A stretch of 36,822 nucleotides of DNA from Candidatus Poseidonia sp. (GTDB lineage Archaea; Thermoplasmatota; Poseidoniia; Poseidoniales; Poseidoniaceae), in the NCBI GenBank assembly GCA_030828165.1, contig JAURDA010000014.1:1-36822 (forward strand). The letters run 5' to 3'. Shown here piece by piece: positions 11,890 to 26,293 of the stretch. The notes beneath the pieces are model-generated. The model was not told where the DNA came from, did no database searches, and saw only the letters and a list, made by a program, of their open reading frames with translations. Made by a program: the position numbers and the translations under genes. Positions within the stretch are counted from its first letter, which is position 1. Each line of letters starts with the position of its first letter.

Positions 11890-13083
11890 CTAGACCAAAC
11901 TGTCCTCACAGGCGTAACGGCGAGAACAGTGTCGACATTTCCCGGGGCGGTCATGGTCCCGAGCAGCACCTCCGTTCGCCATCGTTTGCTGGACGCTCTT
12001 CACCGCATCGAACAGAAGGGCCTGGTTGGCTTCGTCCCAAGCGACTTTGTGCAGGTTTTCCTGACCGTAACGAAGGATGCAATAGGGCGGCGTCTTACCG
12101 GTCGTGCTGTCAACCAACGCGGCGTAGGCCAAGACTTGAACCGTGTGGGAGCGATGGGGTTTTTCCGGAACCTTTCCCGTCTTTTGTTCAACGGGAATCA
12201 ATTCACCGTCGATGATGACGATTTGGTCCGGACGTCCCCTCAATCCCGTTCGTTCATCAACCAGCAACTGGGCCGACTTGTCATCGTCGGAATAGGTGAC
12301 TTGCGTGTCGGTAGCGAGGTCGTTTTTTGCGGCGAGCACTTGGGCTTCATGGTTGCTAATGAGCGCACGTTGGAGGCGAACCGAGGCCAACAACATCCAC
12401 CCGATGGTCGTCACGGCGAGCACGAACGCTGCTTGGTCTTGGTTGCTCGCAAAGCGCAAAGCCATGGCGTGAATAGCCAGCACGATGGCCGAGATGAACA
12501 TCGCCGCTTCAACCCAACCGCCTTCCAACCAGCCGCCCTTGAAGCCAACCGGTTCGAAAATCGGGTCGACCAAGGTTTGAGCTTCTTCCACGGTCTGGTC
12601 GGGATACATCGGGCCCACGCCGAGCATGGTCCGCCACGGAATGAACACGGCGCCGATGCCGACAAACAAGCATGAAAGGGAAGCCATGGCCAAGAGTTTG
12701 GAGAACTCCGTGGTATCAAAATCGATGTTATCGGCGTTTTGAAAGGCAACGGTGTCGATGGTCAACACCACGATAACGCCAAACCACCACTGCCAGATGA
12801 GCAGGTTTCTCCGGCTCCGGAAACGGTGCTTTTGCATGGTTTCAATCGAGTCGTGAATGGCTTGGTGCACTTCTTTGCCCTGTTCGATCGCCTCGCTTTG
12901 GCCTGAATGACCTTGCTTGGACAGGTGCCACGACATCGGGCAGTAAGTGAATCGCTCAAGATCGCTGGCGCTGACCGGAAGGGCGCTGCCGTCGGCGTCC
13001 CGCCAGAAGCCGTCGTCGCCTTCTTTCGCTTCCGGATGGGTGGGTTTTCGTGAGGAGGATTCGATGGCCTCTCCTCCCGACAT
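11890..13083 (-). CDS. Cas4-like PD-(D/E)XK nuclease with four inserted membrane helices
   Basis: The 397-residue product has the parts of a RecB/Cas4-type exonuclease. An N-terminal cysteine lies in SASDLERFTYCPMSWHL (C48). The catalytic histidine is in GKEVHQAIH (H73), followed by aspartate in GRPDQIVI (D286), the ExK pair in PVEQKTG (E299, K301) and the glutamine of HTVQVLAYA (Q316). The C-terminal triad C383, C386, C392 should join C48 around an iron-sulfur cluster. Unusually, about 150 residues with four membrane helices (about 94-114, 130-150, 191-211, 217-236) sit between the first part and the nuclease core. ATG 13083 has GGTGGAG upstream; a GTG at 13155 is in frame. No CRISPR genes are nearby. 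Nuclease fold is well supported; role is unknown. Confidence 0.88.
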   Translation of the reverse strand: MSGGEAIESSSRKPTHPEAKEGDDGFWRDADGSALPVSASDLERFTYCPMSWHLSKQGHSGQSEAIEQGKEVHQAIHDSIETMQKHRFRSRRNLLIWQWWFGVIVVLTIDTVAFQNADNIDFDTTEFSKLLAMASLSCLFVGIGAVFIPWRTMLGVGPMYPDQTVEEAQTLVDPIFEPVGFKGGWLEGGWVEAAMFISAIVLAIHAMALRFASNQDQAAFVLAVTTIGWMLLASVRLQRALISNHEAQVLAAKNDLATDTQVTYSDDDKSAQLLVDERTGLRGRPDQIVIIDGELIPVEQKTGKVPEKPHRSHTVQVLAYAALVDSTTGKTPPYCILRYGQENLHKVAWDEANQALLFDAVKSVQQTMANGGAARDHDRPGKCRHCSRRYACEDSLV

Positions 13084-19490: not shown

Positions 19491-21563
19491 ATGACAGCAC
19501 CAATCCAACGCGTGGCCGTCGTCGGCGCAGGCAACATGGGCTCCGGCATTGCGCAAAAAAGCGCTCAGGAAGAATTTGACGTCCAGATGGTCGACCGAGA
19601 ACTCCAATGGGTTGAGCGGGGCCAATCGATCATCGCCAACTTCCTTGAGGAGGCCGTTGAGCGACGAATTTTCTCACCGGCACAAGTTGAGGCGATTCAA
19701 GGGCGCATCACCGGCGTCGTTGGGGTGGAGAACACGGCGGCCGACACCGACCTCGTCATTGAGGCGGTGTTCGAGGACTTTGACGTCAAGACCGCCGTTT
19801 TCACGGCGCTTGACGGGGCGTGCGGCGAGCAGACCGTGTTGGCCTCCAACACCTCCTCATTGTCCGTTAACGCTCTGGCGGAGGCAACGGGCCGACCCGA
19901 CCGATTTGTTGGTCTCCATTTCTTCTACCACCCGGCGAAGAACCGCCTGGTCGAAGTCATACCCGCCCAAGCCTCCAGTCAAGCCACCATCGACAAGGTG
20001 GTGCAATACTGCAAGATGTTGGGCAAGGTCGTCATCGTTTGCGCCGACCGTCCCGGCTTTGTCGTGAACCGTTTCTTCGTACCTTGGCTCAACGAAGCCT
20101 GCTTGTTGCTCGAGGAAGGGGCAGCAAATGCGGCCCAAATTGACGCCATTGCGTGCAAAGCGTTCCGCATTGGTTTGGGACCCTTTGGTCTGATGAACCT
20201 CACCGGCCCTCCCATCGCTTTGCATTCCACGGATTACTTGGCCGAGCAACTCAACACCCCCCGTTACACGGGAGCTGCGAATCTCCGGGCGCTGGTTGAA
20301 GCGAACGAGCAGTGGGATGTCTCCCAGGACGATGGCTACACCGACGAGCAATACACCGTCGTCTCCGAACGCCTGTTGGGCGTTGTCTTTGGCGTGGCCG
20401 CACAAATCGTTGAGGAGGACATTTGCAGCATGGAAGACGTCGATCGTGGAGCGAAAGTGGGTCTGCGTTGGGCTCGCGGTCCGTTTGAGATGATGAACCG
20501 AATCGGCGTTGATGAAGCGTGCCGCATGGCCGTTGCCTACGCCGAAGTCGCCGGAGAGGGCTGGTCCGTCCCCGCCTTCTTCTCGCAACAAGGCTCAACG
20601 GGATGGCAGTTCTCCTACGTTGACACGGTCGTGAACAACGGCGTCGCCACCATCACCATCAACCGACCTGAAGCGATGAACGCCCTCAACGTCACCGTGG
20701 TGAACCAGTTGACCGAGGCCGTCGCCGCAGCCAACGCCAACGATTCGGTCCACACCGTGGTGCTGGACGGCGCTGGCAAAGCTTTCGTCGCCGGTGCGGA
20801 TGTCAAGTTCTTCGTCGACAAGATTCGTGCAGACGCCATCCCCGACATCTACGACTTTACGGCCGAGGGGCACGCGTTGCTCGAAGCGTTGGAAAACTCT
20901 CCAAAAACCACCGTGGCCCTCACCACCGGTTTGGCCTTGGGCGGCGGTCTTGAACTCGCATTGGCTTGCGATTACCGCATCGGTACCCGTCGCACGCAAT
21001 TCCGGTTCCCCGAAACCTCAATCGGCATTTACCCCGGTTTGGGGGGCTCTCAACGGCCAGCCCGTATTTGCGGCATTCCTGCCGCCCGCTGGGCCGTTCT
21101 CGCAGGGAACTTCATGGACGCCCAGACGGCCACCGATTTAGGCCTCGTGACGCACTTGGTTGACGTTGCGGGCGTGGATGCTTGCATCGCTGAACTGGCC
21201 CAAGCAGGCAAGCCCGAAAACAAATACCCCGGTGAACCTGCAAATCCGGATTCACCGGTTGCCGCGTTTGCTTCGTCCTTCTTCAACGACTCCAACATGA
21301 GCGTTTTGATGGAAGGTGGATGCCCCGAAGGCTTCAATCCCGAAGAGAAAGGCGTCGCTCGGCAGATCAAGAGCCTCTCCTTCACCGCCCCCATCGGCTT
21401 GCGAATGGCGAGCGACCTCATCGATGCAACGGCCACGACCTCCCTCAAGGAAGGCCTTCAGTTGGAGTTGGACGGCTTGCACACCATCTTCGCCACTCAG
21501 GACGCCCTCGAAGGACTTTCTGCACTGATTGAGAACCGCCGTCCGACCTATCAAAACCAATGA
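19491..21563 (+). CDS. 3-hydroxyacyl-CoA dehydrogenase/enoyl-CoA hydratase fusion
   Basis: The 690-residue bifunctional enzyme of fatty-acid beta-oxidation has the dehydrogenase first and the hydratase second, as in other archaeal fusions and opposite to bacterial FadB. The dehydrogenase (1 to about 380) shows the NAD-binding VVGAGNMGSGIA, SNTSSL, the catalytic-histidine motif HFFYHPAKN and PGFVVNRFF. The hydratase (about 385-690) shows the oxyanion-hole strand AFVAGADVKFF, GLALGGGLELALACDYRI with the first catalytic glutamate, and FPETSIGIYPGLGGSQR with the second. It likely catalyses two successive steps, hydration of enoyl-CoA and oxidation of the hydroxyacyl-CoA. It stands alone here, but a PaaI-type thioesterase lies nearby. 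Confidence 0.94.
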   Translation: MTAPIQRVAVVGAGNMGSGIAQKSAQEEFDVQMVDRELQWVERGQSIIANFLEEAVERRIFSPAQVEAIQGRITGVVGVENTAADTDLVIEAVFEDFDVKTAVFTALDGACGEQTVLASNTSSLSVNALAEATGRPDRFVGLHFFYHPAKNRLVEVIPAQASSQATIDKVVQYCKMLGKVVIVCADRPGFVVNRFFVPWLNEACLLLEEGAANAAQIDAIACKAFRIGLGPFGLMNLTGPPIALHSTDYLAEQLNTPRYTGAANLRALVEANEQWDVSQDDGYTDEQYTVVSERLLGVVFGVAAQIVEEDICSMEDVDRGAKVGLRWARGPFEMMNRIGVDEACRMAVAYAEVAGEGWSVPAFFSQQGSTGWQFSYVDTVVNNGVATITINRPEAMNALNVTVVNQLTEAVAAANANDSVHTVVLDGAGKAFVAGADVKFFVDKIRADAIPDIYDFTAEGHALLEALENSPKTTVALTTGLALGGGLELALACDYRIGTRRTQFRFPETSIGIYPGLGGSQRPARICGIPAARWAVLAGNFMDAQTATDLGLVTHLVDVAGVDACIAELAQAGKPENKYPGEPANPDSPVAAFASSFFNDSNMSVLMEGGCPEGFNPEEKGVARQIKSLSFTAPIGLRMASDLIDATATTSLKEGLQLELDGLHTIFATQDALEGLSALIENRRPTYQNQ

Positions 21564-21583: not shown

Positions 21584-21820
21584 TCAAGCCCAGCGGTCGG
21601 CGAGGTCGTTCATCGCCCCAACGAGTTGAGCGATGTCGATGTTTTCGCCGCTTTCCTGCGCCATGCGGAGGCGGTTCGTCACGGCCTCAACCGTTTCCTC
21701 GGTTGGGACGCTGCCGGTGAGTTCTTCGATCACGTCGGCGATGCTTCGTCCGTGACCGTTCATGATGGCCAAGATGGCCTTGATGCGTTCTTCGTCGTCT
21801 TTTGGGCTTCGTGCAGTCAT
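21584..21820 (-). CDS. Small helical protein of the E1-JAMM operon
   Basis: The 78-residue product is predicted to be mainly alpha-helical, with no cysteine, no membrane segment and no C-terminal diglycine. The segment IKAILAIMNGHGRSIADVIEELTG could be an HTH-like or helical-bundle unit. I do not recognise a family. ATG 21820 overlaps the JAMM stop (ATGA) and has GGAGG 8-12 bases upstream, so it is translationally coupled. An extended frame to 21892 is less likely. As third gene of an E1-JAMM operon it may be a partner or substrate adaptor, but this is inference from position. Confidence 0.8.
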   Translation of the reverse strand: MTARSPKDDEERIKAILAIMNGHGRSIADVIEELTGSVPTEETVEAVTNRLRMAQESGENIDIAQLVGAMNDLADRWA

Positions 21821-22365
21821 TGGGCTTCCTCCAGGGCGATGTTGTTGTTCACGTACCAATCGTGCCACGGAACGGGGGCTTCCTCGGTCCACTTGTTCAG
21901 CGGACCGCTCTCGCGAATCATGCCGGTGCTTTCGACCTCAACGAAGGTGCGGTTGCTGCTGTGCTTCGGACCGGGTTGGCCCAAGACCATGGCGGATTCA
22001 AGAATACCGGCTCCCAAAGCAAGGCTGTTGGTGTCGGTGTTGCTCCAGTAGGAGGCGAAGCGAGGATGGGTGTGGACCCAGAGTTTGAACGGCAGACGGC
22101 CGCCCACGGGAGGTTGCAGGGTGACTTGGCCGGCCGTGCCCCAGTCGATGAAGACCTTGTCGTCGGCGTCGATCAGCACGGAGGTTTCCAAGGCGGCCAG
22201 CACCGAAAGAATGTACACGCCGTCCCAGCGACGGGCCTGTGCCAGTGCCGTTTGAACAGCGAGCAGTGCGGCATCGTCCACCCGCTTTTCGCTGGCAGCG
22301 AGGCAGGCCAACTCCCAGGTTTCATCCTCGATGGGCAACTCTTGAGCATCGGGAAGCACCATCAT
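21817..22365 (-). CDS. JAMM/MPN-family metalloprotease
   Basis: The 182-residue product has an exact JAMM zinc motif, H98-T-H100-P followed by six residues, then S108-x-x-D111 (HTHPRFASYWSNTD), as in deubiquitinases and prokaryotic JAB proteins. A candidate catalytic glutamate is E60 in ALETSVLID, 38 residues before the first histidine. Such enzymes cut isopeptide bonds or process C-termini of ubiquitin-like proteins. GGAGGTGAG sits just before the ATG at 22365, and the preceding gene's stop overlaps this start. A longer frame exists to 22458 but lacks such a site. Its partner upstream is an E1/ThiF-like enzyme. Confidence 0.9.
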   Translation of the reverse strand: MMVLPDAQELPIEDETWELACLAASEKRVDDAALLAVQTALAQARRWDGVYILSVLAALETSVLIDADDKVFIDWGTAGQVTLQPPVGGRLPFKLWVHTHPRFASYWSNTDTNSLALGAGILESAMVLGQPGPKHSSNRTFVEVESTGMIRESGPLNKWTEEAPVPWHDWYVNNNIALEEAQ

Positions 22366-23102
22366 GCGCTCACCTCCGGGAATCCGAGAGCGCCATAGGT
22401 GATGCTGCCCATGGACTGCACGGGACTTGGCTTCCCCCTCCATTGTTGAAGTGCCCACTGTGCCCCGATGGCGGCAGCGACGGCGAATCCAAATTCGAGG
22501 TTGCCGGCCTCAAGCGCGCCTTCAACTTGGCAGCTGGCGGGCTCGTGGTCGGGGGTCATGCGCTCGAGCAAGGCGGGAGGACTTTGAGAGGAAAGCACCA
22601 ACCAACCGTCACCGCTGCAACGCACGTCCATCCAAGGAACATCAAGGCCGTGGACCAACCGCCGAGGTTCGGGGCGGTCAACGCACACCATCACGAGGTC
22701 GGCGTTTTGGAGTTGGTCGGCGGTGCGAAGATTCTCAACGACGCCGCGAACCCGGAGGGCGCTCGTTTCGTCATCGAGTCGGTTTGCAAGGCAGGCCACT
22801 TTTGCCTCACCGATGTCGTCGCGGCTGTACTTTTGGTGGCCGAGGTTGCCTTCCTCGACGATGTCAGCGTCCATCAGGGTGACGTTTCCGGCGAGGTTCA
22901 CCCGTCGCAAGCCTGCGACGAGCAGTTCAACGAGTTGGGTTCCAATGCCGCCGGCACCGACGACAAGCAGGTTTTTTGGGACAGATTCAGGCTTCACGGA
23001 ATCCTTGTCCCTCAAGGGTATTTGAAGAACGCACCCTGAGCGCAGTTCCTTGGTGCCCAGCCCCCGTTCAAACGGTTTTGACTGAACGGGGCTCTGAGGC
23101 AT
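22362..23102 (-). CDS. E1/ThiF-like adenylating enzyme
   Basis: The 246-residue protein has the ThiF/MoeB/E1 fold. The ATP-binding loop is GAGGIG (49-54), preceded by NLLVV. The acidic strand and following motif are LMDADIVEEGNLGHQ (D78, D80, N86; the usual Arg is His). Lysine K101 follows in GEAKVACLA, and D142 in VCVDRPEP is the adenylation aspartate. A cysteine at C191 (PASCQVEG) lies where MoeB has its catalytic TC(V)EAG cysteine. The zinc-binding CxxC pairs of MoeB/ThiF are absent. Such enzymes activate ubiquitin-like or sulfur-carrier C-termini. I chose ATG 23102; the frame also runs to 23195. It begins an operon with a JAMM protease. Confidence 0.9.
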   Translation of the reverse strand: MPQSPVQSKPFERGLGTKELRSGCVLQIPLRDKDSVKPESVPKNLLVVGAGGIGTQLVELLVAGLRRVNLAGNVTLMDADIVEEGNLGHQKYSRDDIGEAKVACLANRLDDETSALRVRGVVENLRTADQLQNADLVMVCVDRPEPRRLVHGLDVPWMDVRCSGDGWLVLSSQSPPALLERMTPDHEPASCQVEGALEAGNLEFGFAVAAAIGAQWALQQWRGKPSPVQSMGSITYGALGFPEVSA

Positions 23103-23160: not shown

Positions 23161-24225
23161 ATGGGCGGCAAGACGGCGTTGGTGACCGGCATCACGGGAC
23201 AGGACGGCTCCTACCTTGCGGAATTGCTCCTCGACAAAGGCTACACCGTCTACGGATTGGTGCGCCGCGTCTCTCAACCGACCTCGGGACGCAGCCTCAT
23301 CAACCACCTGATGAACCACGAGAACTTTCACCTCATCAACGGCGATTTGACCGACCAGAACTCCATCGATAACGCCGTGAGCCAAACCCAACCCGATGAG
23401 TTCTACAACCTCGGTGCCATGTCCTACGTTCCGGAATCCTGGCGCTCCCCCATGATGACCGCCGACATCACGGGTCTGGGCTCGCTTCGCTGCTTGGAAG
23501 CGATTCGCAAGAACGCCCCAAATTGCCGCTTTTATCAGGCGGGCTCCTCCGAGCAATTCGGAAAGGTACGCGACGTTCCTCAGACCGAGTTGACGCCCTT
23601 CCACCCCCGTTCACCGTACGGCTGCGCCAAGGTGTTCGCCTTCGAAATCACCCGGAACTACCGGGAATCCTACGACATGTTTGCCTGCACGGGCATCCTC
23701 TTCAACCACGAGAGCCCACGCCGTGGTCTTGAATTTGTCACGCGGAAGGTCACGATGATGGCCGCCCGTATCGCTCACGGCTTCGACGAGTGCTTGTGGA
23801 TCGGCAATGTCGATGCGAAGCGAGATTGGGGGTACGCCGGCGACTACGTGGAAATGCAATGGCGGATGCTTCAACAAGACGAGCCGGGCGACTACGTCGT
23901 CGCCACCGGCCGCACCCACAGCGTCCGGGACATGATCACGCTCGCCTTCTCCCATGTCGGCCTCAACCTGAACTGGTCGGGCCAAGACGTTGACACCATC
24001 GCCACCGACCAAAACGGCGTGGTTCGCGTGCGGACCAACCCCAAATTCTTCCGGCCCGCCGAGGTGGACTTGCTCATCGGCGACCCTGCCCTCGCCGAAA
24101 AGGAACTGGGTTGGGTTCCGAAAACCTCCTTTGAGGAATTGGTGCAAATGATGGTCGATGCCGACATGGCCTTGGTGCAAGAAGCCGTCGACGGTGGATA
24201 CGCTCCGCCCACGCCTCCAGAGTGA
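23161..24225 (+). CDS. gmd: GDP-mannose 4,6-dehydratase
   Basis: Gmd converts GDP-mannose to GDP-4-keto-6-deoxymannose, the route to GDP-fucose, rhamnose and related 6-deoxysugars. The 354-residue protein is an extended SDR enzyme with the cofactor loop [13 protein letters not shown] (about 9-21), the Tyr-Lys pair in [10 protein letters not shown], the [20 protein letters not shown] stretch specific to this family, and [28 protein letters not shown] element about 27 bp upstream may be the promoter. It likely feeds the glycosyltransferases elsewhere in this window. It diverges from the E1-like operon. Confidence 0.96.
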
Positions 24226-24679: not shown

Positions 24680-25105
24680 TCAGCAGCACCCTTGGCTGCG
24701 CATGGGTGCGGCGATGAACGCGACTCGGTCGATGTCCTGCGTGTTGTGAAGTTTCTCCAAGGCTTGGCGAATGGAGCCCGCTGAGCCGTGAATGTGCATG
24801 GTGTCCACGCAGGTGTGGCTGTTGGAGAGGCACTGGTGGTTGTACGATGAGACCTCAATGGCGTGGGAATGGCGCAACTCGATGAGTTTGTTTTCCACCC
24901 CGTGCTGATAGTAGATCACCAAGGTGCCTTCCACGTCTTCTTCGTCCTTCATGTTCGTCAAATCCCCACGTTTCGCGACCTCTGCAAAATGGTGCGTGGC
25001 GTCTCGCAAAAACATGCTGCGGTTGGTGTAGCCTGCGGCTTTCACGAGGTCGTCAAGCGAGGCTGCAAAGGCCTTGTCGGCACTGAACGAGAGAACTCGG
25101 CTCAT
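24680..25105 (-). CDS. NikR-like ribbon-helix-helix metal-responsive regulator
   Basis: The 141-residue protein has an N-terminal ribbon-helix-helix (SRVLSFSADKAFAASLDDLVKAAGYTNRSMFLRDATH) and a C-terminal ACT-like domain as in NikR (EGTLVIYYQH, LIELRHSHAIEV, CVDTMHIHGSAGSIRQAL). Residues that could bind metal, by comparison with NikR, are the histidine in YYQH, a histidine/cysteine cluster in YNHQCLSNSHTC and HIHG. The spacing differs from E. coli NikR. It is divergent from a ZIP transporter gene, which suggests that it regulates metal uptake; which metal is unknown. Start ATG 25105; a longer frame to 25162 is less likely. Confidence 0.85.
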   Translation of the reverse strand: MSRVLSFSADKAFAASLDDLVKAAGYTNRSMFLRDATHHFAEVAKRGDLTNMKDEEDVEGTLVIYYQHGVENKLIELRHSHAIEVSSYNHQCLSNSHTCVDTMHIHGSAGSIRQALEKLHNTQDIDRVAFIAAPMRSQGCC

Positions 25106-25147: not shown

Positions 25148-25168
25148 CCTATTATCCGACAACCTGCC

Positions 25169-26293
25169 ATGAGTGAAGCCCCACTCCTGTACGCCGCCCT
25201 CACGCTGGTCATTGCCCTAACCTTTGGACTGCTCCCCATTTTTTCTTCCATGAAAGACCAGCAGGACCGCTTGAAAACATTCACCGCCATCGCTGCTGGG
25301 ATTATTATTGCCTCAGCGATGCTCGTTGTCATTCCGGAAGGTTACGAACTGGCGACTTCACAGGACGCGCACGGCGAGGAAGAACTCGCCGGTTCGCTGG
25401 CATTGGTGCTGCTTGAGGTGCATCACGGCGACATCAACGCCACGCAAGCCGTCGAAGAGGTTGAGGCGCTGCTGGGTGGCCATGATGAAGCCCACGATGC
25501 CGAGCACGACGATGCCGGCCACGAAGAAGGCGAAGAAACGTTGGAGGAAGCGCTGCTCCACACCATCGAGGAATACGAAGCGGGTGACATCAACGCCACG
25601 CAAGCCGTCGATGAATTCGGGGCCTCGCTGGAAGCCCACGCCCACGAGGACGGCGACGACGCTCACGCCCACGAAGATGAAGCATCAATGCTTTTGATCG
25701 GGGGCGCCTTGTTGGCCGGCTTTGTGTTCATGCTGGTGCTCGAAGGCTCGGGCATTGGGCACGCTGTCCATGAAGAACACCACGACCACGGAGACGAACA
25801 CGGGCACGGTCACGTGCACCACAACGATTCGGGTTGGATGGTCGTGCTCGGCTTGACCCTGCACTCCGCTACGGACGGGTTGGCGATTGGGGCAGCTGCA
25901 GCGACGGGTCACCTTGCGTTGACGGCCACCGTGGCCTTGGCGGTCTTGATTCACAAAGCGCCGGCAGCCTTCAGCCTGGGTGTGTTTTCCATGCACGAGC
26001 GTGCCGAGCGAAACGACTCCATTCGAGATGTCGCCGTCTTCTCGTTGGCCACGCCCGTCATGATGCTGCTGGCGTTCTTTGCGCTCGCCGACCTCGACAC
26101 GCACGTGATTGGCCTCGCCATGCTCTTCTCGGCTGGCACCTTCCTCTACGTGGCGACCGTTGACACCTTGCCCGATATTCACAACATGGAAACAGGTCGC
26201 CGTGCCCTCTTCCATGTCCTCATCGGCGTGGTCGGTTTGGCCTTGGTGCTGATGGGCGCTGACGCCGCAGGGTTGATTGAACACGCCCACTGA
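25169..26293 (+). CDS. ZIP-family metal transporter with His/Asp-rich loop
   Basis: The 374-residue protein has about eight membrane helices and the ZIP signature: LHSATDGLAIGAAAA in helix 4 and VLIHKAPAAFSLG in helix 5, which carry the metal-binding His, Asp and Glu-type positions. A cytosolic-loop region between early helices (about residues 70-180) is rich in His, Asp and Glu and contains a 52-residue duplication marked by two GDINATQAV segments. A second His-rich stretch (HEEHHDHGDEHGHGHVHH) lies before helix 4. ZIP proteins import zinc, iron, manganese or other divalent metals. The start ATG 25169 lies 25 bp from a TATA element. The NikR-like regulator diverges from it. Confidence 0.92.
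   Translation: MSEAPLLYAALTLVIALTFGLLPIFSSMKDQQDRLKTFTAIAAGIIIASAMLVVIPEGYELATSQDAHGEEELAGSLALVLLEVHHGDINATQAVEEVEALLGGHDEAHDAEHDDAGHEEGEETLEEALLHTIEEYEAGDINATQAVDEFGASLEAHAHEDGDDAHAHEDEASMLLIGGALLAGFVFMLVLEGSGIGHAVHEEHHDHGDEHGHGHVHHNDSGWMVVLGLTLHSATDGLAIGAAAATGHLALTATVALAVLIHKAPAAFSLGVFSMHERAERNDSIRDVAVFSLATPVMMLLAFFALADLDTHVIGLAMLFSAGTFLYVATVDTLPDIHNMETGRRALFHVLIGVVGLALVLMGADAAGLIEHAH
25430..25611 (+). repeat. Intragenic duplication in the ZIP gene
   Basis: A 26-bp stretch at 25430-25455 (encoding most of GDINATQAVE) recurs exactly at 25586-25611, 156 bp (52 codons) later. The two copies sit in a His/Asp/Glu-rich loop of the ZIP transporter. In both copies the motif follows a LL-xx helix end, consistent with a duplicated loop module. 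Confidence 0.8.

Follow-up and report, generated by a model that had tools for sequence, protein, structure and literature searches.

The known systems nearest to the locus considered here contain an E1-type adenylating enzyme, in most cases with a metalloprotease of the JAMM (JAB) type. The E1 and JAMM proteins of the SAMP system of Haloferax are not known to constitute a coupled or fused unit, and MccB, the E1-like enzyme of microcin C7, is not known to have a JAMM partner and adenylates the C-terminus of a heptapeptide, which is not ubiquitin-like. We have analysed a window (the whole stretch of 36,822 nucleotides, positions 1 to 36,822 of contig JAURDA010000014.1 in assembly GCA_030828165.1) that is part of the genome of a Candidatus Poseidonia archaeon (G000 in our sample), belonging to the Poseidoniales or Marine Group II, which are uncultured archaea abundant in the surface ocean. 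On the minus strand of this window three coupled genes encode an E1-type enzyme, a JAMM protease and a helical protein of 78 residues, in that order and joined by 4-base overlaps. Our essential proposal, to which we would attach a probability of roughly 0.55, is that they encode a private module in which E1 and JAMM switch a covalent protein modification on and off, with the small helical protein as a dedicated third component.

In the classification of Iyer et al. 2006 (PMC1779556, section 14), E1-JAB operons of types 6a to 6e carry an E2-like domain, a ubiquitin-like (Ubl) protein, or both, and fusions of E1 with JAB are noted for types 6a and 6e. Type 6d, the PRTRC cassette, comprises in that account Ubl, E2-like, JAB, E1 and alpha-helical proteins, to which annotated plasmid cassettes add ParB. 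Our operon resembles types 6a and 6e in that E1 and JAB are fused or adjacent, and the same may be said of CBASS Cap2/Cap3, Bil and Bub (in part PMC13373217); however, all of these systems have E2-like domains and/or Ubl partners, and none was recognised here. For the archaea, Makarova and Koonin 2010 (PMC2948915) distinguishes four E1 families, describes Jab genes as seldom linked to Ubl genes and includes one Jab-E1 fusion, in methanogen RC1. Like the fused loci reported below, this unites JAB and E1 in a single archaeal protein, although there Jab is written first, while here E1 forms the N-terminal and JAMM the C-terminal part. The Haloferax SAMP system (UbaA, the SAMPs and HvJAMM1/2) provides another archaeal E1 and JAMM with on/off action, and there a general transcription factor is affected: according to PMC4895103, turnover of TBP2 depends on UbaA and JAMM2, with SAMP2 stimulating it. 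The operon E1 differs from that system in falling far short of the UbaA model (see below). Measured against the operon types of section 14, what is new is an E1-JAMM trio without a recognised Ubl or E2 gene and with a helical partner instead. No description of the operon was found, among the matches listed, in titles and abstract openings on Marine Group II or Poseidoniales together with ubiquitin-like, JAMM, JAB1 or ThiF, most subscription papers and the whole of bioRxiv lying outside this search.

Organisation and conservation of the operon

The operon begins with the E1 gene (22362..22997, minus strand; 211 residues from a GTG start, stop codon included), which belongs to PF00899 and whose start was set by relatives. 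Its stop codon overlaps by 4 bases the start of the JAMM/MPN+ metalloprotease gene (21817..22365, minus strand; 182 residues, with an N-terminal helical extension), and the stop of the latter overlaps to the same extent the start of the gene for the small four-helix protein (21584..21820, minus strand; 78 residues, no cysteine). A previous sequence-only reading of the window had noted the overlap of stop and start codons between the E1 and JAMM genes, and it is confirmed here.

Conservation was followed through 101 loci reached via JAMM, which comprise the window, 80 of 98 confirmed matches, and 20 divergent picks, 11 of them selected for an open frame of about 400 residues; certain genomes are represented twice. 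E1 is adjacent to JAMM in 90 of these loci and fused to it in the same open frame in the other 11 (L142-L152), that is, a JAB stands beside E1 in 101/101, as the dedicated pairing suggested beforehand would have it. Because the fused loci were fetched for their frames of about 400 residues, 11/101 is not a frequency of fusion; all of them belong to the second family of the order, by inference the Thalassarchaeaceae. The small gene follows JAMM in 98 of the 101 loci, with two of the others at contig edges and one (L137) in which it was not found. Within the Poseidoniaceae, the family of the window, 24 of 30 loci keep the 4-base overlap of E1 with JAMM and 29 keep that of JAMM with the small gene, which leaves the contig in L015. 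Values of dN/dS range from 0.012 to 0.125 over 18 comparisons (three genes in six pairs), and the trio is under purifying selection. Since it recurs in 98/101 loci, has low dN/dS and retains its overlaps, the association is more than chance; the possibility, foreseen from the sequence, that relatives might not keep the three genes together was not borne out.

The E1-type enzyme

PF00899 recognises the ThiF domain at E=2.2e-17 (63.4 bits against a cut-off of 28.1). A start at 23102, as the sequence-only reading had it, is rejected: in 28 of 30 Poseidoniaceae loci an ATG or GTG stands at the position of GTG 22997, and in many relatives in-frame stops lie shortly 5' of it, so the start is placed at that codon. 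The exceptions are L025, which is cut by the contig start, and L032, with an ATG five codons further upstream. Corrected in this way, the 211-residue protein opens just ahead of the Rossmann loop, and the residues D142 and C191, to which attention had been drawn together with the GAGGIG loop, become D107 and C156. GxGGIG, D43, D45, N51, K66, D107 and R112 are invariant or nearly so (99-101 aligned loci) and C156 is kept in 100/100 aligned E1s; the ThiF domain, the glycine-rich loop and the D..N..K..D adenylation residues of the E1 superfamily are all present. The arginine of the NLxRQ motif, typical of the E1-like superfamily, is not kept, and H54 occupies its position in 98 of 99 aligned loci. 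By eye there is no CxxC pair, in agreement with the initial remark that MoeB-type zinc cysteines are lacking.

Among NCBIfam models the nearest is PRTRC ThiF (TIGR03736; 3.5e-15, 56 of 144.75 bits), followed by ThiF and MoeB, all of them below cut-off. An identity as MoeB, ThiF or UbaA was rejected on scores far under the equivalog cut-offs (33.1 of 266, 46.1 of 275.25 and 30.6 of 450 bits respectively), and no thiamine or molybdopterin genes were recognised among ten window open reading frames (ORFs) scanned or, by eye, in the gene neighbourhoods listed for other loci; an enzyme of thiamine or molybdopterin biosynthesis was the alternative that the sequence-only reading had kept in view. When the E1 profile was compared with solved structures, MccB (5.5e-12) and UBA1 (6.4e-12) tied at the top, with PaaA at 3.5e-4, while PADLOC E1-E2 models of the CBASS type match the E1 region at best at 2.1e-11.

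An alignment of seven family E1s with four plasmid PRTRC E1s has S155-C156, W122, D124, V106-D107 and the adenylation residues in common, and 15 of the 20 plasmid matches listed are annotated as PRTRC ThiF. Judged by these comparisons of sequence, the E1 is closest to the PRTRC (type 6d) E1s, with which it has the Ser-Cys motif in common. The likeness takes in the W-x-D and V-D motifs, a JAB next to or near E1, and PRTRC A of L207, where HTHG...FWS..D corresponds to HTHP...YWS..D here (hhalign 13%, E 0.002). The differences are nevertheless considerable. The E1 stays well below the PRTRC cut-off, and its H54 stands in place of an arginine that is present in each of the four PRTRC E1s compared (4/4); E1 precedes JAMM; the 78-residue helical product of the third gene resembles neither PRTRC E nor PRTRC C; the window operon has no recognised gene for ParB, a Ubl or an E2; and the module is here a chromosomal archaeal locus.

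The JAMM protease

The JAMM protein contains HTHPRFASYWSNTD, an exact match to HxHPx6SxxD, as had been noted beforehand, and E60, H98, H100 and D111 are present in 101/101 loci, with S108 in 100 and one unread. Of the profile matches anticipated at the outset, that of E1 to ThiF stood, and for JAB/MPN the window JAMM scanned alone reaches 12.7 bits against the Prok-JAB cut-off of 25; across 26 JAMM members, 13 match Prok-JAB at E<=1, the best at 6.7e-4. Among solved structures the JAMM profile finds its best matches in the deubiquitinase AMSH-LP (E=9e-4 over 41 residues) and an archaeal Rpn11 homologue (0.018). The assignment to JAMM is made because of the motif, the AMSH-LP match and the E/H/H/D residues kept in every locus. 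In 13 of the 26 aligned members (L142-L149, L151-L153, L155 and L156) the loop from HxHP to S is one residue shorter than in the classical JAMM.

The small helical protein

The third gene had been described as encoding a 78-residue helical protein without the look of a ubiquitin fold, and modelling agrees: AlphaFold2 predicts four helices and no strand (mean pLDDT 71.6), hence no beta-grasp fold in the model, and the C-terminus is helical. No close match to this model was found in the PDB. None of 50 non-redundant sequences (0/50) ends in Gly and there is no Gly-Gly; cysteine is absent from the window copy, which on that account is not a thioester-carrying E2, and occurs in 16 of the 50, at no conserved position. 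Two identities were rejected: that of an E2 or Ubl, since the protein lacks a conserved Cys, a GG and, in the model, any strand, and that of PRTRC E or C, to which hhalign gives 0.2% and 0.1% for the proteins of L207.

What is fixed in this protein is its C-terminal end: of the 2633 pairs with less than 50% identity 2601 are flush there, while in the same class flanking genes are flush in 0/40, 0/15, 127/1402, 0/7, 0/26 and 0/61 pairs and the flanking 3-hydroxyacyl-CoA dehydrogenase/enoyl-CoA hydratase (HADH/ECH) gene in 71/99, all these pairs being non-independent and most control classes small. Two further flanking-gene controls had no pairs in this class. At 50-70% identity, 1411 of 1458 HADH/ECH pairs end flush as well, so that the small protein is not alone in having a fixed end. 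With slightly different alignment settings and fused ORFs included, the flush fractions are 563/2436 for E1, 564/3013 for JAMM and 72/229 for HADH/ECH. The non-redundant alignment has one gap in total across its last ten columns; the sixth residue from the C-terminus is W, L, M, V, I or F in 49 of 50 sequences, and the last is variable (A 28, V 6, S 4, C 4, Q 3, I 2, T 2, E 1). Such a fixed C-terminus suggests either that this end has a function or that the last helix is strictly packed; because glycine is absent, it is not a Ubl signature.

Search for a Ubl and an E2

No Ubl or E2 gene was recognised in the window operon, in which E1, JAMM and the helical protein stand between a divergent and a convergent gene, and the statement to this effect in the sequence-only reading holds. 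The genome search for a small Ubl ending in GG that it recommended returned one ThiS-family protein of the host, ending in SGG, on another contig (C61). A ThiS-family match is present in 56 of 59 relatives, namely in 37 of 39 with JAMM and in 19 of 20 without, and next to the module no lookalike of the host Ubl was found among 5949 ORFs of the loci with this one query sequence. A second ThiF-family protein, probably of MoeB/UbaA type, is encoded elsewhere in the genome (276 bits, in a 402-residue frame). Since the ThiS match occurs regardless of JAMM and another ThiF-family protein is available, the operon E1 looks less like the activator of the housekeeping Ubl than like an additional enzyme that has a private partner. 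Genome-wide, neither PF14454 (Prok_Ub) nor PF14460 (Prok-E2_D) gave a match over cut-off in nine JAMM-positive genomes, the best for the latter being 0.02 in the host itself, and control genomes likewise had none. Because the controls also failed the PF14454 cut-off, a divergent Ubl may exist elsewhere.

Distribution within the Poseidoniales

With JAMM as query, matches were obtained in 39 of 59 genomes, and in 29 of 30 within the genus, the window's own included. The JAMM profile matches 150 of 318 genomes of the order: 105 of ~171 in the Poseidoniaceae and 45 of ~147 in the second family, totals that derive from label ranges and are possibly off by a few genomes. In a phylum-wide sample 39 of 292 genomes match JAMM, every one inside the Poseidoniales. 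Of 98 genomes in a class sample, 37 have strong E1 matches (E<1e-45) and all of these again belong to this order, and the 21 genomes of a third family in that sample have weak E1 matches or none. JAMM accompanies E1 in 36 of the 37, the E1 of the remaining genome (G121) being truncated at a contig end; G270 has a JAMM match and a weak E1 match. In viral contigs, 16 pattern stretches were examined and no relatives confirmed (0 of 16), and a viral origin was rejected on this basis. Within the searches made, the module is so far seen only in the Poseidoniales.

Seven genomes (G151, G030, G179, G109, G128, G169 and G208) have two JAMM matches each, and a second copy of the module is possible in some of them; in G030 both copies (L157, L158) are complete with E1, JAMM and small gene.

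A TFIIB-like gene in the second family

In many second-family loci the small gene is followed by a fourth, which encodes a divergent TFIIB-type zinc-ribbon protein of ~315-450 residues, and in the Poseidoniaceae locus L201 a TFIIB-like gene lies upstream of E1 (TFIIB-like genes at L194:12379-12978, L195:8174-9292, L196:5979-7106, L198:603-1601, L200:7270-8400, L201:4396-5469, and in L212-L231). Compared with canonical archaeal TFB, the profile covers the zinc ribbon and linker (hhalign 93.7%); the PF08271 ribbon was recovered in two scanned members (2.6e-10 and 6.8e-4), while several others match no family. At the level of sequence, TFIIB homology is firm only for the zinc ribbon and linker.

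Strong TFIIB-like matches (E<1e-25) occur in 21 of the 318 genomes, all in the second family, where 20 of the 45 JAMM-positive genomes carry one. A JAMM match is present in 20 of the 21, and G289 has instead a small gene at a contig edge; the association with JAMM has a Fisher p of 2e-11, in which relatedness is ignored. In 18 of the 20 TFIIB-like loci examined, the small gene precedes the TFIIB-like one on the same strand and lies within 0.8 kb of it, G213 and G206 leaving room for a further gene in between. By coordinates the TFIIB-like gene of G317 is 0.5 kb from JAMM, and in G210 and G050 it lies near a contig start with the operon near a contig end; overall, 19 of 21 genomes are linked to the module and two are at contig ends. 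Short TFIIB-like hits also lie beside the operon in G046 and G223. Several observations weigh against reading too much into this linkage. There are 25 JAMM-positive second-family genomes (25/45) without a strong match, and 12 further genomes with weaker hits (E 1e-11 to 1e-19), which lie on a different contig than JAMM in seven and are found without any JAMM match in five; moreover, only members next to the operon went into the search model, so that strong matches lean towards genes of this kind. By analogy with the control of TBP2 by the SAMP system and JAMM2 in Haloferax, the linkage suggests that the module may act in the control of general transcription factors.

Genomic context

A TATA-like box, TTCAAATA (23019..23026, minus strand), lies ~30 nt upstream of the E1 start codon; it was found by eye and is weak in the window, and a TTTAAG/TTTATA-like box stands upstream of E1, again by eye, in most of 27 loci of the genus Poseidonia. 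A spacing of ~30 nt from box to start would suit a leaderless archaeal transcript. The divergent neighbour is a GDP-mannose-dehydratase (GMD)-like gene (23161-24225, plus strand) and the convergent neighbour is the HADH/ECH gene (19491-21563, plus strand), both named by eye. When 37 wide loci were clustered, the HADH/ECH flank was common to 24 and the GMD-like neighbour to 24; second-family loci are absent from these clusters and some divergent Poseidoniaceae loci are only partly in them, among the clusters listed. An upstream mutase-like neighbour is common to six second-family loci (by eye). Across loci, the trio is thus found in differing gene neighbourhoods.

The HADH/ECH protein appears by eye to have its hydroxyacyl-CoA dehydrogenase part at the N-terminus and its enoyl-CoA hydratase part at the C-terminus, which we take to be the reverse of the usual FadB order. 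Elsewhere in the window, a gene at 24683-25105 (minus strand) encodes a NikR nickel-binding C-terminal domain (8.6e-8) and is divergent from a ZIP transporter gene (25154-26290, plus strand; 1.5e-30), whose product contains long tracts of His and acidic residues and repeats the motif GDINATQAV. A third gene (11893-13068, minus strand) joins a PD-(D/E)XK/Cas4-like nuclease (1.8e-13, 4.3e-8) to what by eye is an apparent membrane-spanning stretch.

Proposed mechanism and alternatives

In the private module that we propose, E1 would bind ATP and adenylate a protein C-terminus, as its invariant adenylation residues suggest. The acyl group would then pass to the invariant Cys156 as a thioester and from there straight to the target, transfer without an E2 being proposed because no E2 gene was recognised. 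JAMM, neighbouring E1 or fused to it, would cleave the (iso)peptide bond, to judge from its own invariant residues, and the small helical protein would work with the E1-JAMM pair, either as the activated C-terminus or as an adaptor. In part of the sister family, the TFIIB-like protein is plausibly a target or effector.

The role of the small protein decides which form this module takes. A fixed C-terminus, strict coupling and a separate second E1 favour a modifier without the beta-grasp fold, with E1 adenylating its C-terminal carboxylate and JAMM removing it from targets; MccB, which shares the top solved-structure match, also adenylates a peptide C-terminus, and we take this to be a parallel. 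An ORF of this kind follows JAMM in nearly every locus, its flush end mostly exceeds those of flanking genes, and the window copy, being without Cys, is not a thioester-carrying E2. However, the last residue varies without ever being Gly, the model makes the C-terminus part of a helix instead of a free tail, and the flush end perhaps reflects just the packing of the last helix, HADH/ECH being flush as well. We know of no E1-dependent protein modifier outside the beta-grasp fold, and put this form forward tentatively; equally tentative is its extension, that the four-helix protein, as a true modifier without the ubiquitin fold, activated by E1 and removed by JAMM, tags the TFIIB-like factor in the Thalassarchaeaceae. 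The lack of glycine and a C-terminus that is helical speak instead for an adaptor or scaffold of E1-JAMM, in which case the modifier would be the housekeeping MoaD/SAMP-like Ubl encoded elsewhere. An SGG-ending protein of the ThiS family is indeed present in the host, with ThiS-family matches in most relatives; the small protein is all-helical in the model without a conserved Cys, and the JAMM profile resembles true deubiquitinases. Yet this Ubl match is as frequent without JAMM as with it, was not seen to co-localise with the module among the 5949 ORFs searched and has another ThiF-family E1 available to it, and the R-to-H change in the operon E1 also speaks against such a partnership, which we put forward about as tentatively as the modifier.

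Alternatives to the private module would give the pair a different purpose. In a small-molecule or peptide pathway, E1 would adenylate a peptide or a sulfur carrier for a metabolite and JAMM would trim a precursor, which would accord with the MccB and PaaA matches and with the operons of ThiS/MoaD, JAB, E1 and sulfur-metabolism genes described in PMC1779556; but among the genes found repeatedly with the trio in its different neighbourhoods none was recognised as serving biosynthesis, sulfur metabolism or transport (the neighbouring ORFs being mostly unannotated), and what recurs in the sister family is a TFIIB-like gene, so that we regard such a pathway as unlikely. The patchy occurrence in the second family, compared with that in the window's family, and the matches to CBASS-type models might be taken to indicate an antiviral defence system akin to the CBASS, Bil or Bub E1-JAB operons. 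This we think very unlikely. The flanks are shared (24/37 for each neighbour) and the gene is present in 29 of 30 genomes of the genus, and vertical inheritance is therefore favoured; no effector gene was recognised, no scan for defence genes near second-family loci having been made, and no viral-contig relatives were confirmed.

The proteins are small, which makes the question of the third component amenable to in vitro work. Should the modifier prove to be the helical protein, the action of E1 enzymes on proteins would not be bound to the beta-grasp fold; as an adaptor, the helical protein would show how a minimal E1/JAMM switch is aimed.

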